This document shows, piece after piece, positions 14,040 to 57,257 of a stretch of 64,000 bases of DNA (position 1 is its first letter; each line of letters begins with the position of its first letter). The notes beneath the pieces were generated by a model. The model was not told the DNA's origin. It saw nothing but the letters and a program-made list of their open reading frames with translations, and did no database searches. The translations under genes and the position numbers were made by a program. The stretch is from Watersipora subatra. Its lineage: Eukaryota > Bryozoa > Gymnolaemata > Cheilostomatida > Watersiporidae. The stretch covers positions 27,276,558-27,340,557 of the forward strand of contig NC_088714.1 of assembly GCF_963576615.1 (NCBI RefSeq). The letters are read 5' to 3'.

Positions 14040-14450
14040 TCAGCTAATTACACAGCTTTTTCTGAGCTGTTTTGGAGTTTCCTGGGGGTTAAGTATTTGT
14101 TTTCTAGCCCGATCAGGGGGCCTGAGGCTGGCATACTTATAGTTTCTGAGTCTACAGTCTGTTCGGTGAGTTAGTGAGTAGGATTTGATATCAGTTTTGC
14201 ACGCTGCCGGCAAGGGAAGTCTCTCAATACCATAGAGAGTGACCCTGTTAGCTAGCACTTTCGTGCATAAGTCATACAGGCTGGGCACTATACCCGTAGC
14301 TGGTGAGGAACGATTCATTCCGTTGCGCTTGAGAACGAGTCGAGACAACTCCGCGAGTGACTCGAGCACATTGAAGTCACAGAGAGAAGATACTTCGTAG
14401 AAGGCCATGTCATGTTTCTCCGAGTACTGCCCAGCTACAAACTCACTTAC
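14040..14450 (-). CDS. RAB40: RAB40 exon 3 (end of G domain, SOCS box, CaaX)
   Basis: Acceptor ttgtttgtag (minus strand) before 14450. Starts [20 protein letters not shown] and continues with [11 protein letters not shown], the G5-like region of Rab40. The SOCS box is SLYDLC...ERLPLP. Stop TGA at 14042-14040 follows KSCVIS. Confidence 0.92.
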   Translation of the reverse strand, partial: VSEFVAGQYSEKHDMAFYEVSSLCDFNVLESLAELSRLVLKRNGMNRSSPATGIVPSLYDLCTKVLANRVTLYGIERLPLPAACKTDIKSYSLTHRTDCRLRNYKYASLRPPDRARKQILNPQETPKQLRKSCVIS

Positions 14451-23400: not shown

Positions 23401-25239
23401 TGTATACCAAATGCCAATTCCGATGGTTGCATACTTTGAAAAATATCCCATATGTACTAATTGCATATTTGGTGTGCCAATGTGCTCCGGTAGGAGGTAC
23501 GTTGAAACACCCTAAGGGGCACATCGAAACGTCCTTGATTTTCATAGTAATTTTTAGTTTCAGAATTGTTTTCTTGAACTTATCTTCAGCCAAACAATTC
23601 AAATTTCCACTAATTATCTGAACAACAAAAACTTGAAAAGAGTTGGCTATGAACTACAGAGCACTGTGTACAACAATCACGACAAACAAACTTCCGTGGT
23701 ACTACAAAACATATATACATGTTGACCTAATGATCAAACTTTTCTTTCTATATGTTAGCATTTGCAGCCATGATATCAATTTTGGCCAGAAATTTAGAGG
23801 TTCATCATGAGGATTTACTTTCAGCTCTCATCAAGGTTTGTATCAAACCACAGCTTCAACGCTACTTGAGCTGTACCCCTCCATGAGAATAGTGGGCAAG
23901 TTGAGACACGTTGCAACTTGCGCCACAATTCTTATCATTAAAACGTCGCAACTTGCCCCATACCCTTGTTGTTTCAACGTGCCCCAAATGTCTCGAGTAA
24001 CCAAAATGTTCATCCAAACTCAAGATGATGCAACATCATGAAGTTGGTGGATTGTGCAAACAACATGTCTATAGCTGCTTCCACTGACTTTTGTTAACAC
24101 AGGATGACCTACAATGACGATATGCAAGTCTCTAAACTTGGATGTAAAAATAAAAGGGCAAAAAATTACCAATAAATTTTACAAAATCATGGCTCACCTG
24201 AATTGCTGTTCTTTTCATTTCATGCAATCGAGATATCTCATACGATAACCAAAAAAGCTCTTCAGTTAGTGAGGTAAGAATTCAAAATGGTGTAAAGAAG
24301 CAAGACTTTTGAGGAGTGTTTCAATGAGCCCCGCATTGCAATATGCCCCACTCTCCCCTAATTCATACCGATGCACTCCTGTCTCCTTTAGCAGCACACT
24401 TTTTAAATAAGATTGACTGATGCATGGAAATGTATAAAATGGAATAGCTTGCGCAGTATTTTTGTACATCATCCACAAGTGCTGTTTCCACCTTTCGCAA
24501 ACATGAAATATTCTATGCAAAGTTGCGAGTAACAAAACTCACTTGACTTGCAGTTTTTTGCCGTTTCCATCTTGCGGACGACGGAAACTTGCTGATTAAC
24601 CGCGCCATGAACGCATAGTGTATCCTCATGAACACATAGTGTATCCCCATGAACACATAGTGTATCCTCATGAACACATAGTGTATCCTCATGAACACAT
24701 AGTGTATCCTCATGAACACATAGTGTATCCCCATGAACACATAGTGTATCCCCATGAACACATAGTGTATCCTCATGAACACATAGTGTATCCTCATGAA
24801 CACATAGTGTATCCCCATGAACACATAGTGTATCCTCATGAACACATAGTGTATCCCCATGAACACATAGTGTATCCTCATGAACACATAGTGTATCCTC
24901 ATGAACACATAATGTATCCTCATGAACACATAGTGTATCCCCATGAACACATAGTGTATCCTCATGCTGGTTAGGAATTTGCTCTTATAAATAAACCAGC
25001 TCCACACAGAGCAAACACTATATAGTAGACAAACCTGAAGTGTCCCAGAGTTGTAGTTTAACTCGTTTACCATCTATCACGATAATGGTGGATTTGTGAT
25101 GAGAAGCCTTAGTCGAGTAAGGCAACTGAACAGCTGAGTTAGGGAGGCCGGCTAACAACTCCTCTTTGCCCACATCAGAATCTCCAACCAGAAGAAATTT
25201 CAAACTGTAGTCATACTCCTCATCTACCTGATGAGGCAT
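14040..25239 (-). CDS. RAB40: Rab40-type small GTPase with SOCS box, whole gene (3 exons)
   Basis: Exons 25239-25035, 16407-16217 and 14450-14040 (minus strand) join in phases 1 and 0 to 807 nt, 268 residues; vertebrate Rab40 proteins are about 280. The G domain shows P-loop GDSDVGK, then QLWDTSGQGRF (G3 region) and [15 protein letters not shown]. In place of the usual NKxD it has ILIGNRLHL, which is how Rab40 proteins read. After the G domain comes a SOCS box ([10 protein letters not shown], then ERLPLPAA, the Cul5-box LPLP), and the C-terminus is CVIS, a CaaX prenylation motif. Rab40 proteins are membrane-associated substrate adaptors of Elongin B/C-Cullin5 ubiquitin ligases. The start at 25239 is the first ATG in frame before the conserved [17 protein letters not shown]. 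Introns of about 8.6 and 1.8 kb hold mobile elements. Confidence 0.92.
14925..15118. repeat. Interspersed repeat family D, copy 1 (Rab40 intron 2)
   Basis: Shares ordered blocks with 52430-52640 and 56645-56931: a ...GAAACaGTAAA... segment, a cattcgctgtga-like segment, and a final caaattcatcagcag-like block. Class unknown. Confidence 0.4.
15661..16140. mobile_element. MITE family E, copy 1, with long internal hairpin
   Basis: 480-bp element whose first bases TTAGTAGATTTTAT are the exact reverse complement of its last bases; similarity between the two halves continues inward. The centre holds 32-bp inverted arms (15859-15890 and 15899-15930, two mismatches) around an 8-nt loop. No transposase coding seen. 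A related, more decayed copy lies at about 50670-51265 in LRR1 intron 5. Confidence 0.6.
16217..16407 (-). CDS. RAB40: RAB40 exon 2 (switch II to G4)
   Basis: 191-nt exon: acceptor tatttgaag, donor GACAG|GTATAC (minus strand). Encodes [18 protein letters not shown], then [12 protein letters not shown], and [21 protein letters not shown]. This is nearly the vertebrate Rab40 sequence through G3-G4. Confidence 0.93.
17035..18898. mobile_element. TIR DNA element family B, copy 1 (Rab40 intron 1)
   Basis: The left end cagtagacgctcctaca is mirrored by tataggagcgtctacta at the right end. Internal blocks (for example acctttggctatacaaaaag near 17171 and the segment 18480-18680) recur at 28140, 29440-29600, 30770-30960, 32060-32400 and 33900-34080. 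No intact transposase; a 60-70 codon open stretch at 18087-18290 (minus) is not recognisable. Confidence 0.55.
18893..18930. repeat. TA microsatellite
   Basis: Run of alternating TA/TATC directly abutting the right end of the family B element, as expected if a TA-rich target expanded after insertion. Confidence 0.6.
20077..21531. mobile_element. TIR DNA element family A, copy 2 (Rab40 intron 1)
   Basis: Left end tcgtaaaacctataattgaa; right end ttcaattagatgttttata is its inverted form. It matches the family A copies at 7262, 44748 and 59828 over most of its length. It contains an internal 22-bp tandem repeat (20410-20537) absent from the other copies. Confidence 0.6.
20410..20537. repeat. 22-bp tandem repeat inside family A copy 2
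   Basis: About six units of ccctgatattatagcctgtg plus TA, with one C variant. The flanking element copies have a single unit, so this is a local expansion. Confidence 0.8.
22480..22720. mobile_element. Possible Helitron-like 3' terminus
   Basis: ACCCAGGCAATGTCAGGT (imperfect hairpin) followed by agcacagCTAG and T at about 22688-22718 resembles Helitron 3' ends. A small direct repeat (gatatatgtcgctatatg) sits near 22485-22530. The 5' limit is not resolved. Confidence 0.3.
23276..24360. mobile_element. Putative TIR element family F (Rab40 intron 1)
   Basis: Left end ggtggggtgaggcacattgc and right end (reverse complement) gagagtggggcatattgc are imperfect inverted repeats. Several internal segments (near 23480-23530, 23890-23990) echo the same gggcacgttgcaac theme in both orientations. 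No transposase recognised. Confidence 0.4.
24606..24968. repeat. 21-bp minisatellite in Rab40 intron 1
   Basis: About 17 tandem units of tcatgaacacatagtgtatc plus C (the third base of the first codon varies C/T: cctcat or ccccat). The length is a multiple of three and no unit contains a stop in one frame on each strand. Long open frames therefore run through it on both strands (heptapeptides YPHEHIV on plus, MRIHYVF on minus); these are repeat artefacts, not genes. The array ends about 66 bp from the Rab40 exon 1 donor. Confidence 0.9.
25035..25239 (-). CDS. RAB40: RAB40 exon 1 (P-loop, switch I, G3 start)
   Basis: ATG at 25239-25237; donor ACTTCAG|GTTTGT at 25034 in phase 1. Encodes [20 protein letters not shown], then a loop with [16 protein letters not shown], and [11 protein letters not shown]. 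An open frame extends 21 bases upstream only through TTG, so 25239 is preferred. Confidence 0.9.
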
Positions 25240-37699: not shown

Positions 37700-38731
37700 T
37701 TCGGTCTAGGTCTGGTATGTAAACTGGGTCATTGACGTGTAGAGTGGGGCTGTGACTGTCGTCATGATTCCGCTTCATGTTTTTTTTATGAGTTCGCGGA
37801 AAACTATGTCAGCATGATCAGCGAGCTTCAATTGTAGTTTTGAGGGGTGGAAAGGTAAGTCTGTTTGTAATCGTCTACTCATTAGCAATTCCGCTGTGGA
37901 TTTCTCATTTCTGATTGGGGTGTCATGGTATGCCAATAGACCTAGATACGGATCTTCAACTTTCTTCAAAATGTTCTTAATAGTCTGAACAGCTCCCTCG
38001 CCGTTCGCTTGGGGATGATGTGGCGAGCTTGTTACGCATGGCAAGTCATAGAGTTGAGCGAATTCGTTGAATGCTTGGCTACTCTATTGTGAACCATTGT
38101 CAGATAGAAGAATTTCGGGTATTCCGTGGCGAGCGAAAATGGACTTCAAATGAGTTATAGTCATTAGCGAATCTGTTGAGTCGAGTTTAGCGACCTCTAC
38201 ATATCTAGAATAGTAGTCAGTAAAAAGTAAATATTTATGGCCTTTTCAGTAGAAGAGATCGGACGCTACTTGCTGCCAGGGTCGATCAGGGTAGGTGGTT
38301 AGTGCTAGTGGCTCCGTTGTTTTGGGTAGGTGTTTCTGGCAAATTTTATATGATTTGATCATTTCATTTCTATAGACAGTCTTGGCCACCAAACTGCTTG
38401 TCGGGCTCTTTCTCTGCATTTCTCAATGTTGAATTGACCATTGTGGAGTCGTCTCATCGTGTCCATGCGTTCAGAGATGGGTATTACGAGTTGTTTATCT
38501 TTCAATACTAAACCATCAACGAGGTATAGGTCACTTTGAGCATTCCACTATGATTTAAGGGCAGTATCAATATCTGATAATTACATCGGCAATCCATTCC
38601 TGAGAAAATCAATGACCTGGCGACAGTCAGTGTCATTCGATTGTTGGATTTTTAATTGTTGTAGGCAATTTTCTGTAATAGGTAGTTGAGTAATGTCAGT
38701 TATCATTCTAACTTCAATAGCTTGTGACAAC
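37700..38731 (-). pseudogene. Gypsy integrase region (broken)
   Basis: The minus strand keeps integrase catalytic-core segments: a VASDLF Asp, LSDNGSQ with the second Asp, and SSPHHPQANGEGAVQTIKN carrying the Glu. The open part 37775-38044 follows the Glu motif. Several stops and frame changes elsewhere. The domain inserts copies into host DNA when intact. Confidence 0.7.
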
Positions 38732-38735
38732 TTAA

Positions 38736-39429
38736 CTCTTTGGCTGGGTTAAAGCCCGGCAAAAAACATCTGAAAATCGTGTAATTTATTTTTCAATATT
38801 CAATAAAATCGGTATTTTATGAACATGCATAGCTCAAATCTTAAACTTATTTTTATGAACCAAATCTTTTGTACATAAACATTCATTTACGTATCTACTA
38901 CTTCAAAACAAATACAACCATGTGCAATTGTCCCTGTATGAAATGCTGAGAAGCATTTCTTTCGGTAGAGTCAAACGCTATAATGTAGCCATGCGAGCAA
39001 CCATAACGATCGTTTTTCTCTGTATATTCCAAGTATATTAAAAGCCCAAAAAGTTTACATCACTTCTATCATCTGAATTATTTTTATTCTGATCAGACAA
39101 AAATCACTAATGATCGCAAGATCAAATAAATTTGATTTTACCGTTTTGAAAGTCGAGCCGATGTTGACTGGTTTTTCCAACTTTTATTCTTTTCCAAGGG
39201 GCACGATTTCTTCAGCTTTTAGCACAAAGCAACGCCTCTCAGATAATCGTTTCATATTGTAAATCATCGACTAATATCTTGTTGATGATATATAAAACTT
39301 ACTAGTGTTCATATCCTTTGTTTAACATTACTAGAAGACAGCTTTATAAACGTCTACCGAAAGCGACACAAATTTTGTTTCCACACGCAACCGATAAACG
39401 ACATTTTGGTCATTTCCCCAGCCAAAGGG
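38736..39429. mobile_element. piggyBac-like MITE inserted in gypsy pol
   Basis: 694 bp flanked by TTAA on both sides (38732-38735, 39430-39433). Inverted ends are CTCTTTGGCTGGG and (reverse complement) CCCTTTGGCTGGG. TTAA target duplication with CCY-starting ends is the piggyBac signature. Removing it with one TTAA leaves the surrounding pol frame continuous. No coding inside. Confidence 0.75.
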
Positions 39430-39812
39430 TTAACATCTTCATCGGTTGGTACTCTTACTGGTTGTCGAGATAATAAGTCTGCTACGTAGTTCACTTTCCC
39501 AGGGATATAGACAGTGGTGAACGCGTATTTCATAGTACGTAGGTGTTGACTTTGTATACGTATGGTCAGATCATTGACGGCTTTGGAGTTGAATATTGGG
39601 ACTAGAGGTTTATGGTCTGTTTCGATTGTAACGTCATGATGGCCCAAAATGTACATTTCAAATTTGCTACAAGCCCAGGCGATACCAAGAGCTTCTTTTT
39701 TTATAGGCGACCAGTGTTGCTCCGTATCAGTTAGAGACCTAGATTTGGATGCTATTAAACATCTAATAGACATATTTTTGAATTTGAAATAGTGTTGCTT
39801 CGAGTCCGGCAT
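39430..39812 (-). pseudogene. Gypsy RNase H fragment
   Basis: The minus strand reads DTEQHWSPIKKEALGIAW, ETDHKPLVPIF and VYIPGKVNYVADLLSR, the RNase H and connection motifs of Ty3/gypsy pol. The frame then runs into the nested MITE. Confidence 0.75.
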
Positions 39813-39930
39813 TTGATGCGCCGCACATGATTATGATCGGTGGTTCTATATTGTACCAAGCTAGGCATGGTGCTTTACAGCCTTCTTGTTTCAGGTTCAC
39901 AGGTGCTTTTTGCTGCATAATATCTCACAA

Positions 39931-40648
39931 TCAAGGGGTGTTTTTCTTTAACAGCGCACGTAATGGTAGGGTTAGTTCGGTAATTCTAGATGAAAACTTG
40001 CTTAGTTGGTTGACTGAACCTAGCAAACTTTGTAGTTGAGTTTTATTTGTAGGACCAGACAACTCTTGAATATCTCTAACACGATCAAGATCGGGGGATA
40101 TGCCTTTGCTGCTGATGTGATGTCTGAGGAAAATGACGGATTGGGCTGAAAATTTACATTTGGCATGGTTCAGAGTCATGCCTGCCGATTTGACCTTGTG
40201 AATGCGCGTGTCGTGCTCCTCTGCTGGCGATACTATAAATAAGCAGATCGTCCATATGGCAGACAACTCCATCTAGTCCTACCAAGATGTCTTTCATGCA
40301 GCGTTGGAATATATCTCTTGCGCTCACTAGGCCAAAGGGGACTCTGTTGTAACAATAACGTCCGAATGGAGTGATAAATGTTGTTAACAGTTTAGATTCC
40401 TCTGAGAGCGGTATTTGATAATATCCAAAATTAACGTCAAGTTTAGTAATAACTGTAGCTCCTGTAATTTTGGCGAATGTCGGGTCTACGGACGGACTGG
40501 GGTGAGTATCTTTTTTAACGGCATGATTTAGGCTTGTCAAGCCAGCGGATATGCCAATTTGGTTGGGATCCTCGTTTGAAACTTGTACCCTCTCTGAGCA
40601 CCAATCAGTGGCTATAGTTACTTTGGATATGACACCTTTCGATTCCAT
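39931..40648 (-). pseudogene. Gypsy reverse transcriptase (frameshifted)
   Basis: Minus-strand motifs in order: TKLDVNFGYYQIPL, FITPFGRYCYNRVPFGL, then CHMDDLLIY, where HMDD replaces the usual Y(V/M/L)DD. A frame change near 40215-40240 follows, after which the thumb region continues (NHAKCKFSAQSVIFL, GHxxS-like HHISSKGI, LLGSVNQLSKF). Confidence 0.78.
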
Positions 40649-40684
40649 GTCGTCTAGCTGAAGTTTTACTACCTTGAGACGTGG

Positions 40685-41185
40685 TTAAGATGCTTCGTAG
40701 GTGACGTGTAAAGCAACTGGGCCCACCTCGTCATTTAGATTTATAGTGTAAGATTCGGATAGTCTACCCAGCCCTTGAACAACAATAGGGTATTCAAGTT
40801 TGAAGTTACAGTTGGGTGTGCTACAAACCGAATTATCAGAATCAGAAACACAGACAGAAACATTATCTACAAATTTGGTATTACATGTGATAAGGCTAAA
40901 AGCCACACAAGCTTGTTTACTAAGTAAATTGCAATCTTGGTTACAGACAATGTAAAGTTTCTCAAGAATACTGTCAGTATCAACCCTTAGTTTAGCATAT
41001 GCAAATCCTATTGTAGTAGGATCCTAAGTGTAGTTCCTGCTGGTCCTATGAGGGTTATGTCTCACTTTGATAGTTTATCAAACACATTGTTATTGTTACC
41101 ACATACAGTGATGTCAGCGCCGGTGTCTAGTTAAAACCTGCATGGCTGTTCATTATCACCACCATACGTTGTGTTGATTAGGGCA
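40685..41185 (-). pseudogene. Gypsy protease and linker (broken)
   Basis: The aspartic protease motif LDTGADITVCG lies at about 41100-41130 (minus), just downstream of a stop, with another stop about 25 codons later. 40685-40906 is an open linker toward the RT. Confidence 0.6.
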
Positions 41186-41274
41186 GTCCATGGTTTGGTT
41201 TGTTGTTTGGCCCATGTTGCTTCGCCGAGAAATGCTTGTTCGTCAGATTGTTCATACGCTTGTGAAACTTCTGA

Positions 41275-41500
41275 TATGGTTGAGGCAGATCTACATACGG
41301 TTTTCCAGTGGCCAATTTTGGAACAGTGATCACATTTGGATTTTAGTGCTGGACAGTCCTGTTTTTGTGTTTGTCATGACCGCACCAATGACTCTTTGAA
41401 GATTTGTCATTATTTGGCTTTAAGTCCGTTCTGGTTTGTGTCCGGTTTCTATTGCTTCTGGAATTATGTTGATTATTCCTGCGTTTTACCTTATCTACCA
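41275..41500 (-). pseudogene. Gypsy gag remnant (nucleocapsid zinc knuckles only)
   Basis: One intact CCHC knuckle, CDHCSKIGHWKTVC (41293-41334), preceded by a degenerate one (WCGHDKHKNRTVQH) and a basic stretch that begins right at the 5' LTR. Matrix and capsid coding is absent, so gag is deleted from its 5' side. Confidence 0.6.
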
Positions 41501-43417: not shown

Positions 43418-43594
43418 ATGAGGTTGACTTGCGAGGTTCACCTAAGTAACAGGCTTCTACCAACACTTAACATGAAAAAAACTGGCAAAGCAGCTAGATG
43501 CCAACTAGTTCTGGGAAAAAAGCCAGCTTCTATAGACAAGACGATATATCTCATGGTAGCTACCAGCCAACACCCTAGTGGTACCATTCTTAAG
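43418..43594 (+). CDS. LRR1: LRR1 exon 1
   Basis: ATG at 43418; donor CTTAAG|GTTGGT, phase 0. MRLTCEVHLSNRLLPTL to SGTILK. A TTTTACTTTTCAG precedes by about 16 bp, so a 5' UTR intron may end just before the ATG. Confidence 0.9.
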
Positions 43595-46500
43595 GTTGGT
43601 CAGCCGTTGCTAATGATCAGTTAGTAACACAATGCATCCGTATATCACTACATTTACTTTCTACAAAATCCTTTGTAACAGAGGATCAGACACTTCGTAA
43701 CAACATTCATATGTTGAGAATTTCAGCTGTATTTCAGTGGGCAATTTAGCGGTATGTATGTATGACTTTTTATTGCCATTGATGATCATCAATAAAATGG
43801 TGTTTTTCGTTGCATGCCAAAAGAAATAAAAACAACAAAAGATATATACACAAATCAGGAATTAACGTGTTGAACAGAATTGTTTTAAAAGTTGGTAATC
43901 TAATAGCATTGCCGAGGAGTCGAGTAAATGTATGATGGTGTTGCCATGAACAATATTTCAACCTGTACATTTGCTATCCAAGTTTCAAGACTAATTTTAT
44001 TTCTACGACTAATTGTAGGTGTATCAGAATGTTCAGGGAGTGTTTTGCAAATTCGTTGAGCAAGGAAAAGCCAACATCAGGTTAAAGGAGCCAACGACAG
44101 ATGTGCTCATCAGTAAGGTGGGTTGTAAGACCTTTTTACCTTTAAACAACTTTAACACAACATGTTTGACGCATTTTGGGCACATCCCTTTATTTTTAAA
44201 AATTTCTTGTTCTACCAAGTTAAACTGACACTTTGCCGGTCCAATTGAGAGAATAGAACTACGAGACACCCTTAGGCAAGTGCTGTGTTGGAAATATTTG
44301 GGTAATGAATATGAATCATGAATAGATCTCTAAGCATTTCATCATTTTTCATCAACTGAATATATTCAAATTGATGTAAAAAGATTCACATTTCACGAGG
44401 GCTATTCAATAAATAAGGTGAATTAGTTTGTAAAAAGAATTCTATTATAATCAGAAGTTTACAATTTTTTTAAGGTTTACACCCTTCATCAACCAAAAAG
44501 TTGTTAACTGATTTCTGTTCAATTCTGGAGCGTGTGTCTCAGTCAGCCATTTTGGTACACCTCAAAAAAGGATCACATTATCTCCAAGAAAAGTTATGTC
44601 CATCATCAGTGAAGATTATTTAAACTTTAAAAAAAATTAAGCTAGATAAAATTGAGCTTATAATAGAACTCTTTTTATAAATAAAGTAACCTTAGTTATT
44701 CAATGGCCCTTGTACATTTTCATACACGGCTATACATTCCATACATACCGTAAAACCTCTAATTGAACACCACCTCTATTTGAACACCACCTCTATTTGA
44801 CCGCCACATCTATTTGACCGCCACTATGAAACAAGGGTTGAAAAATAGAGCGCTACCCTTTATTTGAACGCTACCTCCATTTGATCGCCACTTTGACTAT
44901 TTTTGATCTTTATGAACCCATAATATCAAGTGATCAGTAAAAAAGTGTCCACCAAATCGGAATACTAATTAATCGTTTACATCAATAAAAATCAATTCTC
45001 CCATTGTCCAACTCCAAAGCTTTTCGCATTTTTTGGTCAAAATTTTGAAAGCAATGCCATCGAAATAATTAATAACAGTCCAAGTTAATAATAGTTCCTT
45101 GTTTAATGCGGTCTTGATACCTCAAAGTGCATATATATAAAAACGGTTTACATTTATGATGGTAGATGAACGATTAGTTTTAGGCCAAAGGTTACGTTTA
45201 GCGAGTAGAACCTTTACGTGTTGCATTTTTGCTAAATGTAACTCGTAAAAATTTTGCTTGGCAAAAAAATTGATTAGACGCTAATATCAACTAGTTGAGC
45301 AGAGCAGAAGAAGAGTTCAGGTCAGAAGATATTGTGGAAGGTATTGGACAACCAGAAGATGTTCGTTCCATCGAAAGCAACAATCAAAACGCAGCTATTT
45401 GAGCAAAAGATGCAAATATTTTTGTTTTAAAGGCATTAATTTTTGTTTCTGCATGTAATATAAGTATGGTTTGTTCACGTCACTTGTTCAATAATATATA
45501 TTTGTAGCATTTTATAGATTATCATTATATAATTTATAAATTTGCAGATTTATATCATATTATTTGATAGCATCACTGCGGTAATCTGATCTTACAATTG
45601 ATCGACGTTTGTAACTCCTATTGCACATAAAAACCTAGTATTGGCTGCAAACTAGCAAACATATCGATGAGTGCAATGAGCTTTAATGCAATGTTGGTAA
45701 ATATAGATATAAAATAAAAATATGTATTCAAAATTGGAATAAAAGGAAAAAATTGAAAACTCCAACAGATTGCACAGCAGGGCACATAATATATATGGCG
45801 CTATAATATTATTGCAGGTTAATCGCAAGCAATAGTTATCAACCGGTAAAGATATTTCTCAGATTCCCAATGCATATTTATTTAGAGATCTACGAAAAGT
45901 TGGAAGTAAATTAGCAAATTTATTGCATCCAAAAGGTTTAATATCGCGCCACCGGGAAAACGAGGGCAGAATATAGGTGACATTTGTTCCGCCTGTAAAA
46001 GGGCTAAATTTATTTTCCCAAAATTCTGACGAGTCTTTTGAAAAATGCAGCGCCAGCCTCCATTTGAAAGCCGCCTCCAATTGACAGCCACTGTAGAGGA
46101 AAGGTTGAGAAATAGAGCGCCATGGCATTCAATTAGAGGTTTTACGGTGTTTTTTTTAAAACTATGTGGAGATAGAATTATCAAATCTGCAACCACTAGC
46201 ATCATAAAAGACCAAGTACCCTTGATTGATATCCATTTTCTAAAGAGGACATTGCTCAATGTCATGAGTTTATCGTACTATAAACTTTAGCAATGGCTAT
46301 CTTCATGAAAGTAAAACCAGAACCAACATTCTTTCTACGGTTATAAAAGGTGGTAGTAATATATATGTGAAGTTCACTATTTTGTTCGGTTCTGTTGTCG
46401 CTTTCTTTTTAGGCTCTAAACAAATAGAAGCGTGTTTATGGGATAGTAAAACAATTGTACAACTATCAGAATTGCGAATTGAATTTCTCTGTTTTAATAC

Positions 46501-49500
46501 ATGTACTATTTTTTTCCTCATATTAACTTGGTTATGTTCTGATTTATAAAGCGTTTCTTTTTAATTATTCTAATTTATTATATAATGCCTAGTACAATTT
46601 TTTCATACTTTAAAGATTCTATCCAACTATGAAGCGTATTTAGGACATCCTGTCCTTTCAAATGAGGAGGCTCTACACTTTACTGGTTGATTCCCTGCAG
46701 TTGTCCGCCGTTAATTTATGGTATTATTACTGGCTATATTATATGGTACTATATTATATTATTATCTGGTAGACCAGTGTTATTACTAGTTATATTATAT
46801 TATGGTATTATTACTAGTATTATTACATTATGGTATTATTACTAGTTATATTACATTATGATATCATTCCTAGTTATATTATATTATGGTATTATTACAA
46901 GTTATATTATATTATGGTATTATTACTAGTTATATTATATTATGGTATTATTATTAGTTATATTATATTATGGTATTATTACTAGTTATATTACATTATG
47001 GTATTATTACTAGTTATATTATATTATGGTGTTATTCCTAGTTATATTATATTATGATATTATTACTAGTTATATTATATTATGGTATTATTATTAGTTA
47101 TATTATATTATGGTATTATTACTAGCTATATTACATTATGGTATTATTACTAGTTATATTATATTATGGTATTATTATTAGTAATATTATATTATGGTAT
47201 TATTTTGCTATTACTAGCGAGATTATATTATGTTGCTATTACTAGTTATATCTCACAGGCTGATGTGAGTCAACTCAAGGCTTTTCTTCGGGCACTCAAA
47301 GCAGTTATATCAAAGGGAGTGCTGGAGGAAGCATCTGCAGGTTTGTGAGTACTAAAGACACAGCCAGATGGAAAATGTTAGATCGATTCAGTTGTTTTAC
47401 GATGACGTCCTGCATTCCTATCAAACACATGTTCCTGTTACGGAGCAGCAGTTTATTTGTAGTACTTTTTACATGTAAATAGACAGTTGTTATTAATCAA
47501 CAATATGTAACAAGTATTTACTTTTGTAACTGCTGAGAGATAAGACAGTCTTTAGTGAAACAGTCAAGGATTCACCAGAAATTATAAGTCAATGCATTAC
47601 CATTTGAATGTTTTTTTTTACAAATTTACCGGAAGCTTGTATTTTTTTCAGTCTGTTTACAGATTTGTTTCATTCAGTTAAAGCTTTATTTCTGTACGTT
47701 TAAAAATCTAAACTTTATATATTAATTCGTTTTGTGTGGATTCTATTTAATCCCTTTCACTGAATTAGTCACCCATCCAGTTTACGTTGCCAGTCACAAC
47801 TCTGCATGAAGTTGCTTGGTACTATTTGATGACACGCTTGACAATTGTGTCGCAAATACTGAAATCATTGTAGGTTGGTCTTGAAATAAAGGTAGCTTGG
47901 GATCTTGCTTGAGTATCCCAGCAAATAATTTGAAGAACTTCACCTCTAATGAATGCATGTTAATGTCTCATCAGCAAGGCTGTAGAATTGCATGTTTGGA
48001 TTGCTAGAGAAACCTGCATAAAGTCTGGTTCCCATATCGAATGCGAGACCCCGGTGGTAATCTCGCGCAGCAAAACATTTGCGGCGCTAGGGTCGACGGC
48101 TAATTTTCGCTTGAAGCTGGGTCAATGGTGATCGCATAAAAATGGCCGCTAGCCATGCCGTCTCGAAAGAGCTGACCTTCACCTGTACAGTGCATTCTTG
48201 GGGAAGTTTTTCCTGCGGCTCTTCGCAAAATTTGAACAGCAATGAACTCTTGCTTTACTCGGTCCTGCGGTGCTGTCATCGGTGTTTACGGCGTATATGG
48301 GAACCAGGCTTAAGTAACTTTTACTACAGATTCTTCTGAGGCTGCCTGCACCTATGAAACGGGGAAGGCAATTTTTTAAAATAGTGAGATGAAAAACACT
48401 TGACTACATTGTTGTTGGATAATTTGAAGATTCCACTGGTTTTTCATTACGTTGAACCAAAATAAGCATTGAAGAAACTATGAATGGTTGGTTTTTACCA
48501 TGATAAAGTTTAGTGAGGTGAAGGAGCTGATTTGATAGGTGTTCCAGCTAGTAACGTAAGCAGATTTAAACGTAGTTCTGAGTAGTTTGATTAAATATTG
48601 TTTCAACCTAAACTGTAATCTCATATTGGTTAAAAGCATCTGATGAAGTAATTTTCCTCAGTTCGTTTTACTGGTAGTAACGTACCAGCATTCACATGCA
48701 GTTGTGAAATGAGTTTATTCGTCTACAATAATCTGTAACCCTAGCTATTTATGCAAAAATATGTGAACCACTTGCTACGATGATTGAATTTTTGCTCTTT
48801 TCACGCTTTCATAAACTACATTCAGATTTCTTTTACAGATGACATGAAGTTAAGTTGCTTGACGCCTGCGACAGGAAAAGCTCTAGATAAACTGAAGACA
48901 AAAACTAGCATATTGGAGAGAAAAAACTATCCTATTATTGAAGGTTTTGTTCCTACTTTAGTACACTTGCAGGTGAGCTTTGCTTTCATTTCTGTCTCTC
49001 TAGTGTATGCATAGCAAGTCAATACTCTTGAACAGTTACACTCTATTTAGGCCAATGAAAGGTTTAATGATTGTATTTATTATGTTTGGTATACAGGCTA
49101 AAAGACCTCGTCTCCGAGGATAAGTAGCAGCAGCTTGGCTGACATGTTGGATATATACTGGTATAACATTTTGAAAACGTGGCTTCCATTCACCCAGTTT
49201 TAGTATTGCTTAATGTTACTGACAATTTAAAAACTAAATGACGGATCACATAATTAGTGATTTATCACAAGCACATCACATGACTAATTGGGTTTCCAAA
49301 AATATTATTGCTACATGTATTGTTGCCAAATGGCAGCTTTATCAACATTTTCTATTCACAAAAATAGACAAAAGGTTTGCAGTATTTTCAAAAGATCTAA
49401 CAAAAACTGCTGCAACACCGTATAATTATATTAAAATAATTTGGCTTCTGAACTAAATTATTTGAAAATTGTCTGTACAAATGCTTATTCATGAAAGCAG

Positions 49501-52500
49501 GGCATGCATTGATAGGTTTCAAACTGATGACCTTCGAAAATAATTAATGTTTAGTGAAAATTTTTAAAATTTTCAGTTTGTGTTTAAATAAGCAATGCAT
49601 GAACTTGCTACAAAGCTTTTTTTTCTATTTAATACAGATAAAGAACTGCAGTCTGAATGGACTTGATAATCATATACTAACCCTATTCGATACAGATAAA
49701 CAACTGCAGTCTGAATTGACTTGATAATATTATACTAACCCTATTTGATACAGATAAACAACTGCAGTCTGAATAGACTTGATAATCATATACTAACCCT
49801 ATTTAATACAGATAAACAACTGCAGTCTGAATAGACTTGATGATCATATACTAACCCTATTTGATACAGATAAACAACTGCAGTCTGAATAGACTTGATA
49901 ATCATATACTAACCCTATTTGATACAGATATACAACTGCAGTCTGAATAGACTTGATATTCGTATACTAACCCTATTTGATACAGATAAACAACTGCAGT
50001 CTGAATAGACTTGATAATCATATACTAACCGTATTTGATACAGATAAACAACTGCAGTCTGAAGAGACTTGATAATCATATACTAAACCTATTTGATACA
50101 GATAAACAACTGCAGTCTGAATAGACTTGATAATCGTATACTAACCCTATTTGATACAGATAAAAAACTGCAGTCTGAATAGACTTGATAATCATATACT
50201 AACCTTATTTGATACAGATAAACAACTGCAGTCTGAAGAGACTTGATAATCATATACTAACCCTATTTGATACAGATAAACAACTGCAGTCTGAAGAGAC
50301 TTGATAATCGTATACTAACCTTGAAGAATTTATCAACCCTAGACATGAGCAACAACAAACTCACAGCTGTACCTTCTGCTCTCCAAGATCTTAGCCTGTC
50401 CTCCCTAACACTTACCAACAACCTCATCGAAGTGTTTGATGAGCAGCTCTGTAGTGACAAGAGCAAGCTTTCCAGCTCTCTGAGAACACTAGATGTTTCT
50501 GGTATGTGAATTTAGTCAGATGTCTAAAAGCATTGGTGCTATTTCTCAGTTGAAACTTAAGGTGGCCGAAGATGGGCTGATTTTTTTAAAATGTAATAGT
50601 TAGTCTAGGTTCAAGTTCTTGGGACTAGTTTTCAATTTCCGAAAGGGTTGATAACATCAAAATTAGAAAAGATTCTTTACAAAATTTCGACCTTTTTTAT
50701 CATTTAAGATTTTGTTTGTTGTTTTGCGCGATCCGACTGTCAGTCGGTTTTAAGACTAAAATCAGCAAAACTTGATTGCGGTTAAAATGCTCTGGCAAAT
50801 ATGACATTTCCAGAAATGATGTCCATAGTTATATTTTACGTTAGTCTCTCACATTGGGACAGTGGCTATTGCCTTCAAGTTGCAGTGATGCGTGTCTCTG
50901 TTATTAACATGTATTTTGTTTTGTATTTGCTCGTGATTTTTGGAATAAAACTTAAAAAACAGCCTCAGATACATTGCTAAATGGTATATATAAATAGATG
51001 TTTCAAATAAGTTAAAAATAGGCTGGTTAGAAATTATCTTTTTGTTTCCATCTAATTCCTGTGTAAACATATGAGCAGCCGTTGCTGATGAGACTGTATA
51101 TTCATCACTTATTAACAATATGCACGAGTATTCACATCATTTTTGTAGAAATCTGGTCACATCTTTCTGATTTTAATCTTAAAACATTTTAGCAGTCGGA
51201 TCACCTAAAACAACAAACCAAATCTTAGGATAAAAAATATCTATACTTTCCAATAAAATATTTTAAATTTGACGCGATTAACCCCTTAAAAGGCTAAATT
51301 AACTGTTCTCTGCGGCTCGTTCAACATGCCAGATTGTCAGTCAATGAACAAAATGGTTGATATCGTCACTTGAACCAGTAGAAAATGATACTAATTCCAC
51401 TATTTAAATTGTTTGCTTTGGTACAACTATTTAAAGTTATTCTCGGGTTCTATAGAAACCTCAGATTTTTCTTGCTTTTACTTGATTGGCTGCCAAACCA
51501 TACTCATAAAGCTTTATTGTAATTATGCAGTTTTTACTGTAATCATCTGCAGTTCTTCTCCTGTAACTTTCCGTTAATCAGTATTTTTTATGTGCACTTC
51601 TACTGAAATGATTGAGTCATGCTATCCCAGGGCAGAACATAAAAGCCCTGAATTAGTCTGCTTAATATATTCTGTGTCCTTAATCCTTTGACATTTGTAT
51701 CTAATACTATCCTTCGATATAGTAGTTCATTGTTCATAGACCTTCCTTCAGTATGGGATTTTGGGCATTACTTCATAGCATGTTTCGTTTGTATCCATTT
51801 TGGCGTATGAAAAATAAAAATGCATTTTTCCATTCTTTATGAGATGAGATGGTTGTTTTTTAAAACGGTTTGAATATTTTATTTTCCAATTCATTGGTTT
51901 CTTGGCTCAGCGAGTCAAATATATATAAGGTCTTTGTTGTTTAAAAATGATGGAAGTTAAACACCTACTCTTTTGTATATGAGATATTATTAATATGTTA
52001 CAGACAACATTTCACTCATTCGTCTCCCATCAAGTATCGTCAATCTAGCTTCTCTTCACACACTGCGCTCAGACAGATGCTCTCTAGCTCATTTTCCATC
52101 ACAACTAGGGAATTTGTCTTCTCTGAAGGTTCTCAGCGTGTCAGAGAACAAGCTACAGACACTACCTTACAGGTACATATATGAGATGGTTAGGAGCTCA
52201 TTCTAGTAATCTTTCCAATAGTAGGAGTCGTGTCCATCTGTTGCCACAGCTAGATGCTGGGAAAAATACTGCATCGTACAGTATTAGAGTTCACAACATT
52301 TAGCATAGCAGTCCAGCATGCTACTGTCTGCGCCACTCCACATATCAGTAGTATTGCAGAATAATTTTACGCGTAGCTATTACACCTAATGATCTCTTAC
52401 AGTACACCGCAATGCCAGGGTACTAGTAGTTACTGGGTTTCCTTGCTTCGAATGTATTAGGAGTTTTTTCTACTCCGAATCGTTGAAACAGTAAAATCGG

Positions 52501-55500
52501 AACGGATTTGACGCTATTTCGCTTCGCAAAGTTTGTGCAAAGACATTCGCAGTGCGACTACTATTTTACATCACAGAAACGCTCACTGCGGATGGATTCA
52601 AATCGATAATACCCAGTTAAGCTTTTCCCAGTTGAGGTAAAGTCGTTCAGCGCATTTCATCACACTACCACAGAGGTATATTTTAAATAATATTGCCAAT
52701 CATAGATTACTCATACAACAATGATTAGATACTTATCTTTTTATTTCTTTTATTACCGTATTCATTAAACAACTGAACCTACCAATTGTACAGATTCTTA
52801 CTGGACTAGTGCTGACCTCTTCCTATGCTTAACTCTTCTAGTATACAAGTAACGAGACGTCTCATGTCTCGTTCCACCTCTAAGACAGACACTGCCATAC
52901 AGGTACATTTATGGTAGCTGTAGAATAGGTGTGGTTGTATATGGTTAGACAGACACTACCATACAGGTACATATATGGTAGCTATAGAATAGGTGTGGCT
53001 ATATATGGTTAGACAGACACAACCATACAGGTACATATATGGTAGCTGTAGAATAGGTGTGGCTGTATATGGTTAGACAGACACTACCATACAGGTACAT
53101 ATATGGTAGCTGTGGAATAGGTGTGGCTATATATGGTTAGACAGACACTACCATACAGGTACATATATGGTAGCTGTAGAATAGGTGTGGCTGTATATGG
53201 TTAGACAGACACTACCATACAGGTACATATATGGTAGCTGTAGAATAGGTGTGGCTATATATGGTTAGACAGACACTACCATACAGGTACATACATGGTA
53301 GCTGTGGAATAGGTGTGGCTATATATGGTTAGACAGACACTACCATACAGGTACATATATGGTAGCTGTAGAATAGGTGTGGCTATATATGGTTAGACAG
53401 ACACTACCATACAGGTACATATATGGTAGCTGTAGAATAGGTGTGGCTGTATATGGTTAGACAAACACTACCATACAGGTACATATATGGTAGCTGTGGA
53501 ATAGGTGTGGCTATATATGGTTAGACAGACACTACCATACAGGTACATATATGGTAGCTGTGGAATAGGTGTGGCTGTATATGGTTAGACAATTGTAACT
53601 TCTCCAATTTTACTGTTTGTTTGTTGCTGGTAGAATAGTGGCTTCTTGAGTTGTAAACATCTCAATAGCTTTATATTGCCATAGCAATATAGCTTTATAT
53701 TGATATGGCAATTTAAAGCTTTATTGTTGTAACATCAGTGTTAGCCCTATAGTGCCCCAAGTGACATGTTCCTCACAACAGTTTTGTAGAGTTGCCCTAC
53801 CATAAATATTCATTCAAGTGGAAAACTTCTGCTTCATAAAAAAGAGTATTCTGTGAGCTATACAATGGTATCATATTTGATTAGTTCAGAACAAGGCATG
53901 TAACCTTGAGCCATTTTTATGTAGTTCTCAAGATTTGAAGCAATTTGTTACGTACATAAGAACTATCGAGCTGGAGACATCATAATAGGTAGTGTAATAT
54001 TGTATATTGTAAACTAGTGTAATAATATAAGAATGCAATCTTTTTTAGTCGCAACTTGATGTTAATTTTCAGCTGAGTACTGAGGGTTAAATTTACTTCA
54101 CATTTTAAACGAAAACTACTTATCACAATTTTGGATATACCTTGATTGGTAGGATTTTTATAGCTGCGATCTTCAAGTATTGTAGAAGTTTGCTACTGTT
54201 AATTATTCCTACTTTTTGATAAGACTGTTTCACTTTCTTTATGTGTCAGCAAGGTGATTCATCAGAGTTTATCATACGGCAGTAGAGATTTCTGAAAACA
54301 TAGTGCCAACTGGAAAACCGTGTACATGTAGTTGCAAACATTTAGTTTGACCTGTTTCAAAGCCTGTGTAGGTAAACGGATTCGAGCAAAACATTATTAT
54401 TCTAGATTGAGCAAGTGTGCATATTTTACCCAATTGCCATTAAAGACTGACAGGTGTGATAAGTATGTGCACAATTATTTCATAGTATGGCAAGTAGGCC
54501 GTGTGGCGTAGTAGATAGCATGCCTGTCTGCAGAATTAGGGTTTCTGAGTTTAATTCCTGTGCGAAGCAGTTTTTCCATTCCTAAAACTATCACTGTAAC
54601 TGGACATATGGATAACAGGCCAACAAACGATAAACACTCAGATTTATACATATATATAGATCGTGTTAGTGGGTTATGTTTCTGTACGTAGCACCATGGC
54701 AACTGAGTGGCCAGTCTTTGTTTGCTCAAAGACTCTTGAGATTATGAATTATAAACACTAGCACAACCGCTGGCAGTCCCGCGAGCTGAGACAGAGATTA
54801 TCGTGTGTAATAACAATGTGCACAATTATTCTTAGTGGTTGCAAGTTGGTTGAGTGGCACAGATGGTCCAATCCGCAGTATGGCCCAATCTTGTTTCTAA
54901 TGCTTTCGCTGGATGACGGATGGATGGACATGATTTTTATCACTGTAAAGATTTTGTAGTAGGTCAGACTTATAGAGGGTGCATGCAGTATGAAATACTT
55001 TTAGCTTTTTATAAGCTTTTGATTCTGGCTGTGAAACTCCCATGATTACAATTCGTGCGAGCAAGACTTTTTCAATGAATGAAATAGCAGTTACATGGCC
55101 ACAAAAGAGTGACTGTGTAGAAAAAAAGACCTCTGACGAAACGTTGCAATAAGTGAACCACTGTTTTCGAGTGATCATATTAAGCATGTTGCTGCTATCA
55201 GAATGAACTGCTCTATCATTGGTTGATTTCCTAACCTCATGATGTCGGAGATGGCGAGCTGTAACAATAAATTGACAGAGTGAATGGTCAGCGATGAACC
55301 AACATCCGTTATCTTGGGACTAATCAGCAAAACAGTCGCGTAATCATGTCCATCTTTCCTGTTTGCTGGTTCGTCGACACCTAAACTGCTTTTTTTATTT
55401 TATGATAGTTACGAAGCTCTGTACGTCCATTCTACATCTATCTCGATATCAGACCATTGATTATGAAGGTCTTAGCAACCCCTTGGATCTAACACTAACA

Positions 55501-57257
55501 CATTGTATTTGCTGTAGTTTCCTTAAGTTGAGGTTAGATGAGCTAAACCTCTATGGAAACCCTTTCCTCAAATCCACTGAAGTCAAGTCCAGGCTCAGCT
55601 TTCCTAGCTTAGGTGAATTGTCAGCACGAGTCATCAAATATCACAAGTAAGGGTTTTTAGTATTGATAATAGGGTTGTTGAAGAATGTTCGTCAACAGCC
55701 CTTTTACTCACACTTTCCTCGGGTAACCGAGTTTTTATTGTTTGCCACCTTTATGTCACCCGTCGACTAATCTTTGCTTTTACCATATTTGTCCATGCAC
55801 TGGGGCTCTAGTTGATAGATATTAAGAACATAATCCATCGTTATTTCAGAGCTTCGCTTTACGGCTTCAGTACTTCGCGGGGTAATAAATATTCATCAAA
55901 GAATTCGACTATTAAAAATAACAAAAAATACGAAAACCAAAATACATGAATCTCTCTCATACTCTCCCTAGCGAAGTCCATTCATGAGCATTTTTGTGGT
56001 AGCAGTCATCACGACTCGCTGTTTTCTTGTGACAGTTTCTCAAGTGGAAAGGTGCGGAGTGCTTGTGATACACTTGTCACGCCTCTTAACACCTTCGACT
56101 CTCAACATTATCCAAAGAACATACGGAAAAAAGGAAAATGATTACAATTGATAAAAAAGTGACTTTATTAGATGAGTTTATTAATTTCTATTTTATGAAT
56201 TTGCAGTTTCGCGGGTCCTGATTTATTGTAAAAAATCAGGGTTTACTGCATTATAATGTAACTCTTCAGTAATACCTTAAAAATTGCAACAATGGCATCC
56301 TGTACTGTTTTCTAAGCCAGCATCAAACTCCAAGCCACTACACTATCATAATAGTAATTATTCTACATGTTGTATTAGCGGAAACACCTGTAAAGTTGTT
56401 CCATTAAGTTTTGGTATTAAAAGCAGGTTCTCAGTGGCATAGTCATATTTGTACTAGTGGCGTATTGCTATTCAGCTTACAAAAAAGGAGCAGTACTCTA
56501 GAAATTGATGTATTGTTGTACAGCTAGTGAGTTTTATTCTATATTGATAGTTGAAGTGACCTAACATTATTCATATCAGTTTATTACTTACCATGTTGTA
56601 ATTATTAGCAAAACACCAACTCTAGATACATGTATATCGCTTTTGGGTTGAGGCCATTCGCTGTGTTTCCTTGCTTCGAATGGGTTCGGAGTTGCTCCCA
56701 CTCGAATCATAGAAACGGTAAAGTCCATACGCATTCGATGCCATTTTGCTTCGAAAGATTTGTGCGAGGGCATTCACTGTGAGAAATTGAGTCCAATTTA
56801 CTAAGTTTTCTTTTGAGGAATACATCGCAAATCTTGGAAAGATCGACATAGTGCAACTTCAAATCATTAAAAGATGGGTGCAAATTCATCAGCAGCAGGC
56901 AACTCCGAATCTATTCGAAGCATGGAAACAGAGTGATAATGCATGTATTTGCTATAAGCATCTAGTTATAGCAATTTTGAATAGCCTCTCCTGTTTTCTA
57001 GGTTGGCTGTAAAAAAGGAATATATTGGTTTCGACCTTTGGACATATCTGTCAGCCGTCAAATGGTGTCCTTGCGGAAAACCTTGCTTTGTTTCCTTTGC
57101 GTGCTACTTAGCGCCAGTAGACCTACGGACGCTTGTGAACTCTTCCTGTCACTGCCTCGACTCGACAGGTGGCAGCACTGCACCACTGGAAGCCTACCTT
57201 TGCAGCCACCGCTGCCTCAGCCTTTATCGTGAGAACCCGAAGCGAAGGAAGTGGTAG
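43418..57257 (+). CDS. LRR1: LRR1 (PPIL5-type leucine-rich repeat protein 1), whole gene, 8 exons
   Basis: Exons 43418-43594, 44019-44117, 47259-47340, 48839-48972, 50276-50501, 52004-52172, 55518-55646 and 57002-57257 join in phase to 1272 nt, 423 residues (human LRR1 414). The N-terminus MRLTCEVHLSNRLLPTL matches the family's pleckstrin-like start. LRRs run through exons 5-7 (TLDMSNNKLTAVP, LKVLSVSENKLQTLP, LDELNLYGNPF). A BC-box SLGELSARVI gives Elongin-C binding, and the tail has a Cys cluster (CPCGKPC, YLCSHRC). LRR1 is the nuclear substrate receptor of a Cullin2 ubiquitin ligase, known for unloading the CMG replicative helicase at termination. Introns 2, 4 and 6 carry tandem arrays that touch or copy splice sites (see findings). 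Confidence 0.92.
44019..44117 (+). CDS. LRR1: LRR1 exon 2
   Basis: 33 codons between acceptor actaattgtag and donor AGTAAG|GTGGGT. Encodes FCKFVEQGKANIRLKEP, the most conserved N-domain block of LRR1 (human FTKFVDEGKATVRLKEP). Confidence 0.92.
44748..46147. mobile_element. TIR DNA element family A, copy 3 (LRR1 intron 2)
   Basis: Complete: ccgtaaaacctctaattgaa at 44748, preceded by TA, and ttcaattagaggttttacgg ending 46147. 1400 bp, reverse orientation to copies 1, 2 and 4. The plus strand near 45300-45400 keeps an open stretch (EELRSEDIVEGIGQPED). Confidence 0.65.
46726..47258. repeat. LRR1: 28-bp AT-rich tandem array ending at the LRR1 exon 3 acceptor
   Basis: About 17 variant units of tattattactagttatatta plus TATTATGG. 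The last partial unit (ctattactagttatatctca) runs straight into the CAG acceptor at 47256-47258, so branch region and acceptor context are array-derived. Confidence 0.85.
47259..47340 (+). CDS. LRR1: LRR1 exon 3
   Basis: 82 nt, acceptor tatctcacag, donor GCAG|GTTTGT, phase 1. ADVSQLKAFLRALKAVISKG aligns with the family segment after the N-domain. Confidence 0.85.
48022..48310. mobile_element. 289-bp MITE with TAA target duplication (LRR1 intron 3)
   Basis: Ends agtctggttcccatat and atatgggaaccaggct are inverted (one mismatch) and flanked by TAA (48019-48021, 48311-48313). The interior is GC- and CpG-rich compared with the intron. No coding gene. Confidence 0.65.
48839..48972 (+). CDS. LRR1: LRR1 exon 4
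   Basis: Acceptor ttcttttacag, donor TTGCAG|GTGAGC, phase 0. SCLTPATGKALDKLKTKTSI and then FVPTLVHLQ, matching human LTPV...FKTKMVI...YSLEHLQ. Confidence 0.92.
49633..50333 (+). repeat. LRR1: 58-bp tandem array of LRR1 exon 5 3' splice modules
   Basis: Twelve units at about 58-bp spacing (acceptor-like ACAG near 49637, 49695, 49753, 49811, 49869, 49927, 49985, 50042, 50100, 50158, 50216, 50274). Each reads TACTAACCCTATTTGATACAG, that is branch-box, short pyrimidine run and AG, followed by ataaacaactgcagtctgaa and agacttgataatcatatac. The last unit is the true start of exon 5. Unit 1 is preceded by a strong T-rich tract (gctttttttttctattt) that the others lack. Units vary at a few bases (GAATAG, GAAGAG, GATATA). 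Confidence 0.92.
50276..50501 (+). CDS. LRR1: LRR1 exon 5 (first LRRs)
   Basis: Starts INNCSLKRLDNRILTLKNL after ACAG at 50272-50275, in phase 0 with HLQ of exon 4 (human HLQTSYCGLVRVD), then TLDMSNNKLTAVPSALQDL and SLTLTNNLIEVFDEQLC. Donor TTTCTG|GTATGT, phase 1. Only this last array copy continues into the LRRs: entry at copy 1 meets TGA within copy 2. Confidence 0.92.
50670..51265. mobile_element. MITE family E, copy 2 (LRR1 intron 5)
   Basis: Left part (ccttttttatcatttaagat, gcgcgatccgactgtcagtc, ttgattgcggttaaaatg) and right part (cattttagcagtcggatcac, aacaaaccaaatcttaggat) are inverted to each other and resemble copy 1 at 15661-16140. The termini are decayed. Confidence 0.4.
52004..52172 (+). 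CDS. LRR1: LRR1 exon 6
   Basis: Acceptor tatgttacag, donor TTACAG|GTACAT, phase 2. DNISLIRLPSSIVNLASLHT, HFPSQLGNLSSLKVLSVSEN and KLQTLPY: two to three LRRs. The last 20 exon bases and first intron bases are the parent sequence of the 64-bp array at 52885-53590. Confidence 0.92.
52235..52355 (-). repeat. tRNA-related short repeat (LRR1 intron 6)
   Basis: The minus strand reads gtggagtggcgcagacagta...ttgtgaactc, in A-box/B-box-like order. Weak match; probably an old SINE fragment. Confidence 0.25.
52430..52640. repeat. Interspersed repeat family D, copy 2
   Basis: gtttccttgcttcgaatg, gaaacagtaaaatcgga, cattcgcagtgcga in the same order as copy 3 at 56645-56931. Confidence 0.45.
52885..53590 (+). 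repeat. LRR1: 64-bp tandem array of LRR1 exon 6 5' splice junctions
   Basis: Eleven units at exact 64-bp spacing (CAG|GTACAT junctions at 52903, 52967, 53031 ... 53543). Each holds acagacactaccatacag then gtacatatatg. The genuine junction at 52155-52184 differs from this by a single base over 29 bp. The rest of the unit (gtagctgtagaataggtgtg..., tatatggttag) partly matches the start of intron 6. Confidence 0.92.
54490..54650 (+). repeat. tRNA-related repeat, family H type (LRR1 intron 6)
   Basis: gccgtgtggcgtagtagata (A-box-like), tctgagtttaattcctgtgc (B-box-like), then the common tail tttttccattcctaaaac...ctgtaactggac and aaacactcagatttatac, the reverse of the H1/H2 left end. Confidence 0.45.
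55518..55646 (+). CDS. LRR1: LRR1 exon 7 (last LRR and BC-box)
   Basis: Acceptor tttgctgtag, donor CACAA|GTAAGG, phase 2. SFLKLRLDELNLYGNPF completes the LRR domain; SLGELSARVIKYH fits the BC-box consensus (S/T-L-x3-C/S-x3-hydrophobic), as in human TLLESSARTI. Confidence 0.9.
56645..56931. repeat. Interspersed repeat family D, copy 3 (LRR1 intron 7)
   Basis: Longest copy: gtttccttgcttcgaatggg ... cattcactgtgagaaattg ... caaattcatcagcagcaggc ... tcgaagcatggaaacag. Relatives at 14925 and 52430. Confidence 0.45.
57002..57257 (+). CDS. LRR1: LRR1 exon 8 (C-terminal Cys-rich region)
   Basis: Acceptor tgttttctag; TAG at 57255-57257. WCPCGKPCFVSF and LEAYLCSHRCLSLY correspond to human ICVCGRFCLNSF and ISYFCSLGC. 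The paired Cys suggest metal binding, which is inference. Confidence 0.9.

Follow-up and report, generated by a model that had tools for sequence, protein, structure and literature searches.

Two tandem arrays, each derived from one of the gene's own exon-intron borders, occur in the LRR1 gene of the bryozoan Watersipora subatra; one adjoins the acceptor of exon 5 and the other, situated in intron 6, carries copies of the exon 6 donor. Tandem repeats across an exon-intron border have been named mirages in amphioxus, where the passages drawn on here from two reports describe them in Adh3, BflGb6, BflGb9, troponin C and PGBD5 (PMC3087553, PMC3902484). The LRR1 arrays are likely two mirages that were produced by local tandem duplication and are tolerated through the choice, under exon definition, of the shortest exon.

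Gene model

The analysis covered a stretch of 64,000 nt (GC 35.6%), referred to below as the window. An LRR1 gene was assigned on the basis of homology, frame, and a PH domain, with the following features (a slash marks the exon-intron border):

43418..57257, + strand, LRR1 gene with 8 coding exons
43418-43594, 44019-44117, 47259-47340, 48839-48972, 50276-50501, 52004-52172, 55518-55646 and 57002-57257, + strand, LRR1 coding exons
48839..48972, + strand, LRR1 exon 4, with donor CAG/gtgagc
50276..50501, + strand, LRR1 exon 5 (226 nt), with the acceptor of array unit 12
52004..52172, + strand, LRR1 exon 6 (169 nt), with donor CAG/gtacat

Exons 2-8 share one frame, and on reading the sequence exon 1, which begins with the ATG at 43418, is in frame with them. 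The predicted product of 423 aa gives a 39% match to Haliotis LRR1 over its length, aligns with the PDB LRR1 chains 7shk (residues 1-415) and 7plo (residues 1-411), and contains the PH domain PF25344 PH_LRR1 (E 1.8e-32); judged by these comparisons, the gene is a full LRR1, presumably a CUL2 substrate receptor. The Haliotis alignment and the two PDB chains backed both the donor of exon 4 at 48972 and the frame of exon 5, as proposed in the initial annotation. Residue Arg176, whose codon lies in the exon portion of unit 12, is conserved in the four other aligned sequences, and just two of the 11 upstream decoy units (6 and 9) retain it. This pattern, which concerns one residue only, agrees with unit 12 alone being coding.

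A full-length W. subatra LRR1 was not found in the protein collection among 7992 candidates sharing most words, and the product truncated by entry through unit 1 had no match at E 0.001 among 411 candidates from the protein collection. The missing LRR1 entry is uninformative, because the collection may lack a gene model for it or the model may exceed the limits set on length. The acceptor-side array may have broken the public LRR1 gene model.

Acceptor-side array

49625..50320, + strand, acceptor-side mirage, 12 x 58 bp, acceptors at 49638 + 58k
49605..49637, + strand, probable ancestral end of intron 4, with the sole long T-run, now before unit 1

Tandem Repeats Finder (TRF) placed this array (array 1) at 49625-50320 with a period of 58, 12.0 copies, 94% matches, and 0 indels; its score of 1245 was the second highest among 41 rows for the window. 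From 49638 to 50276 the 12 acceptors follow one another at exact intervals of 58 nt, in keeping with the twelve 58-bp units described in the initial annotation. Any two units are separated by 0-7 substitutions, with none among units 3, 5 and 7, and the 11 decoy units have a mean pairwise identity of 94.4%. Array 1 is a real tandem array, and given its length and identity, chance cannot account for the structure.

Each unit is composed of 13 nt of intron end (…ATACAG; consensus CTATTTGATACAG) followed by 45 nt of the start of LRR1 exon 5, so that it spans the intron-exon border, and the array adjoins the authentic exon 5 border. ATACAG directly precedes the acceptor in 12/12 units, as had been claimed, and two other motifs described as common to all units proved less uniform: TACTAAC is exact in 11 of the 12 (unit 8 has TACTAAA), and the fixed sequence reported before each acceptor is exact, as CCCTATTT, at seven (units 3-7, 10 and 12). 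TACTAAC lies in the exon-derived part of the unit, where it codes for Ile-Leu-Thr, and could supply a branch adenosine 16 nt upstream of the next acceptor, a distance that is short but possible. As to the proposal that every unit provides a branch box to the acceptor after it, a box at -16 is present at acceptors 2-12, as TACTAAC at 10 of them and as TACTAAA before unit 9. Being coding sequence, the motif need not have arisen for splicing, and the window contains 13 further occurrences beyond array 1.

The two edges of the array differ. The sole long T-run, TTTTTTTTCTATTT, precedes unit 1, where the pyrimidine fraction is 0.71 vs 0.57-0.62 at the other 11 acceptors; the earlier suggestions that this is the only strong pyrimidine tract and that unit 1 keeps the ancestral intron end were thus supported, the long T-run being confined to the left flank and the exon continuation to the right flank. 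This asymmetry is what would be expected if a stretch ending …ACTAACC had been tandemly duplicated. No bases are shared at the two breakpoints, as judged by eye on the flanks. An origin by tandem duplication across the acceptor, also put forward in the initial annotation, is well supported by the 58-nt periodicity and the edge pattern. When array 1 was searched against the rest of the window (E up to 1), no outside match was obtained, as the real border is formed by the last unit of the array itself.

All 11 upstream entries lead to a predicted stop within 7-28 codons, including the TGA in unit 2 that had been predicted for entry at unit 1, and of the 12 acceptors 50276 alone yields LRR1, the last unit being the only one that continues into the LRRs, as first noted. 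From frame and homology we infer that 50276 is the sole acceptor used. A coding repeat was ruled out for array 1, because 58 is not divisible by 3 and each of the 11 entries upstream runs into a stop. No known RNA family was found in the 64,000-nt window at gathering scores.

Donor-side array

52883..53591, + strand, donor-side mirage of 11 x 64 bp within intron 6, every unit with the end of exon 6 and its donor

This second array (array 2), with its 64-bp unit, was absent from the initial annotation of the region. Its unit contains 18 nt from the end of exon 6 and the 11 intron nt that follow them (…CAG/gtacatatatg), and matches the real region at 52155-52183 in 28/29 nt in seven of the 11 units and in 26-27 nt in the others. 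For comparison, matches to 16 arrays were sought in the window outside each array (E up to 1), with at most nine matches listed per array. Thirteen of them had matches outside themselves, and among the matches listed array 2 was the sole one to match an exon border. That border, the exon 6 donor region (E about 1e-7, 28/29 nt), was also its only outside match in the window at E <0.4 among the matches listed. One array 2 unit scored 27/29 when compared with the 14 LRR1 borders vs at most 21 for 200 Markov-sampled units. The donor CAG/gtacat is present in 11/11 units, and its 9-nt core is identical to that of the real exon 6 donor. If the real donor is read through, a stop follows at 52204, so use of the decoy donors of array 2 would also truncate LRR1. 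As an observation apart, a 64-nt unit could in principle be excised as a tiny intron.

Array 2 starts about 710 nt past the exon 6 donor and does not touch the border. An insertion between exon 6 and the array, as the cause of this displacement, is a guess. The intervening intron contains a segment of 125 nt (52433-52557) that is 76% identical to 56661-56784 in intron 7 and belongs to a dispersed repeat. No direct repeat of at least 10 nt was found in 52173-52900, a search that shorter target duplications would escape. A weaker match to the dispersed repeat of introns 6 and 7 lies at 14907-14982.

Other features

46780..47204, + strand, 28-bp minisatellite in LRR1 intron 2, unit without exon sequence
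14043-25239, minus strand, Rab40 gene with three coding exons, protein identical to Watersipora subatra Rab-40C-like

The intron 2 array is a third splice-adjacent array in LRR1 and is intronic only; within 46780-47258 the 28-bp repeat is followed by a degenerate similar stretch reaching to -8 of the exon 3 acceptor, and the array matches 15 nt just before exon 3 at E 0.077. Several minisatellites are present in the Rab40 introns, and the comparison of 16 arrays (E up to 1) gave no match on Rab40 exon borders among the matches listed. The Rab40 protein of W. subatra is present in the protein collection in which LRR1 was not found. Frame pieces resembling a Ty3/gypsy-type retroelement were recognized by eye at 37778-41373 on the minus strand. 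A dispersed family based on a 17-bp repeat (ACCTCTATTTGAACACC-like) occurs on both strands, at 21470-21521, 44755-44817, 8540-8644 and 20132-20175. The array of 17 copies of 21 bp at 24606-24966 has open frames on both strands, because 21 is a multiple of 3.

Comparison with known systems

The initial annotation had held that no named system of this kind was known. That claim fell, since the cited passages on amphioxus mirages describe arrays of just this kind (PMC3087553, PMC3902484); the LRR1 arrays belong to them and are notable for the phylum, the copy number, and the presence of a donor-side partner in the same gene. As in amphioxus, a short border-spanning stretch is repeated in tandem on the acceptor or donor side, many copies have splice signals, and splicing presumably takes place at the authentic border. 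Both LRR1 units are minisatellite-sized, and at 58 and 64 bp fall inside the range of 10-160 bp given in the passage cited for mirage units, many of which, although not all, retain splice signals (PMC3087553); in LRR1 they are retained in 12/12 and 11/11 copies. The differences are that the bryozoan gene has 12 and 11 copies, whereas the parts of the amphioxus reports used here give 2-7 for BflGb6 and PGBD5, that its acceptor units carry the exon-derived TACTAAC, and that its donor array is shifted about 710 nt into the intron. For amphioxus PGBD5, arrays of 60 and 108 bp at splice sites are described, with 7 and 6 copies in one build (PMC3902484). No earlier bryozoan case was found by title or abstract in open-licence papers, among the best 10-20 of hundreds or thousands.

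Two other systems are related. Human boundary repeats, found in duplicated genes, also consist of a minisatellite at an exon boundary, with copies either kept or spliced out; in the portion of the report cited they average four copies of ~30 bp, lie in recent primate duplicates, and have transcript evidence for alternative forms (PMC2812944). In Rogers-model intron gain (AGGT or proto-splice sites; Drosophila), a tandem duplication likewise contains splice signals and copies become intronic. The cases in the cited passage begin within exon sequence and create a new intron (PMC2891723), whereas in LRR1 the duplication copied a border that already existed, and a new intron is not seen.

The amphioxus text cited suggests, from RT-PCR of globins and from Adh3 data, that regular splicing is undisturbed by mirages; its authors also allow cryptic use of the copies and propose mirages as a source of new introns (PMC3087553). 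The public lancelet PGBD5 model treats repeat units as exon, without transcript support according to the passage cited (PMC3902484). Because of the human boundary repeats, the cryptic use allowed in amphioxus, and this PGBD5 model, our assessment is that copies at borders are not always silent.

Splicing and alternative explanations

Splice sites were scored with approximate metazoan matrices. On these approximate matrices, the decoy acceptors scored 4.16-5.85 vs 5.16 for the real acceptor, with units 1 (5.74) and 11 (5.85) above it, and the donors scored 5.85 for the real site and all decoys. Since the decoy scores bracket that of the real acceptor and the donor cores are equal, position rather than strength should decide. 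Exon definition is expected where exons are short and introns long, and with internal exons of 82-226 nt (n=6) and introns of 424-3345 nt (n=7) it should apply to LRR1.

Under this proposal the copies would have arisen incidentally, through slippage during replication or repair and through unequal exchange, and exon definition would pair the acceptor and donor yielding the shortest exon. The outer acceptors would be silenced, as they would make exon 5 284-864 nt (units 11 to 1) instead of 226 nt, and so would the far donors, which would make exon 6 899-1539 nt instead of 169 nt. If the shortest exon is chosen, a single rule would silence both arrays, and no special regulation would be needed. 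Units 10 and 11, the decoys closest to the real acceptor, would be expected to leak to some extent, the products being cleared by nonsense-mediated decay (NMD). The probable reason why array 1 is tolerated is that the copy touching the real exon is still the only one used in splicing. Among the points against this picture, unit 1, with the longest pyrimidine run, a score of 5.74 and the earliest transcription, would be favoured under a kinetic model, unit 11 also scores above the real site, copies at borders are not always silent, and array 2 is separated from the real donor by about 710 nt.

The decoys might instead be regulatory, as the initial annotation had considered, with some transcripts spliced upstream, gaining a stop and undergoing NMD, so that copy number sets LRR1 output. 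All 11 upstream acceptors have ATACAG, score near the real one, and lead to predicted stops, and each copied acceptor may use the branch box in the exon part of the preceding copy, the -16 box of acceptors 2-12 being supplied in this way (TACTAAC in 10, TACTAAA before unit 9). There are also parallels in the passages cited, namely alternative transcripts from boundary repeats in human genes (PMC2812944) and a C. elegans minisatellite enriched near regulated exons (PMC4039745). Such regulation nevertheless seems unlikely, as entry at nine of the 11 decoys needs an exon 5 of at least 400 nt and the cited text suggests that the amphioxus globin and Adh3 arrays are silent (PMC3087553). Nor did the decoy cores show significant excess conservation over the remainder of the unit: substitutions numbered 0 vs 1.3 expected in ACAG (P 0.39), 1 vs 2.3 in TACTAAC (P 0.37), 3 vs 2.0 in CTATTT, and 0 vs 2.3 in the array 2 donor core, none of the four being significant in a test that is weak because substitutions total only 19 and 16.

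Splice borders may be preferred sites of array formation, as the two highest-scoring arrays of the window both derive from borders; the chance of two array seeds inside the gene falling at borders was estimated post hoc as about 0.040 x 0.046. It is doubtful, and we would give it little credence, that such a preference is combined with decoys tuning a replication gene, varying among colonies, in a process common to distant phyla and shared with lancelets.

That the arrays are intermediates in intron gain or sliding, the copied borders being raw material for a new exon/intron border as in the Rogers model, is very improbable. In its favour, the CAG/GT in the donor units gives every 64-nt unit a GT at one end and an AG at the other, the same model was proposed for the amphioxus globins in the passage cited (PMC3087553), and for human genes the part of PMC2812944 used reports that introns have formed from boundary repeats. 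Against it, the LRR1 frame passes through the expected borders with no new intron in the gene model, and the acceptor units are without a good donor (best GT score -0.87 on the approximate matrix). An assembly artefact can practically be dismissed: tandem arrays are prone to misassembly, and one amphioxus mirage was apparently aberrant in the draft genome according to the cited text (PMC3087553), but the array 1 units are not identical and the W. subatra assembly was built, as its report states in the portion cited, from PacBio HiFi reads of ~6 kb mean (13.30 Gb / 2.20 million; PMC12902671), although the exact array copy number could still be off.

Should mirages be present in bryozoans in addition to lancelets, they would be more than a lancelet oddity. 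They would then provide a natural series of 11-12 near-equal splice sites that compete, at known spacings, within one conserved gene, and so a direct test of exon definition, as well as possible raw material for intron gain.
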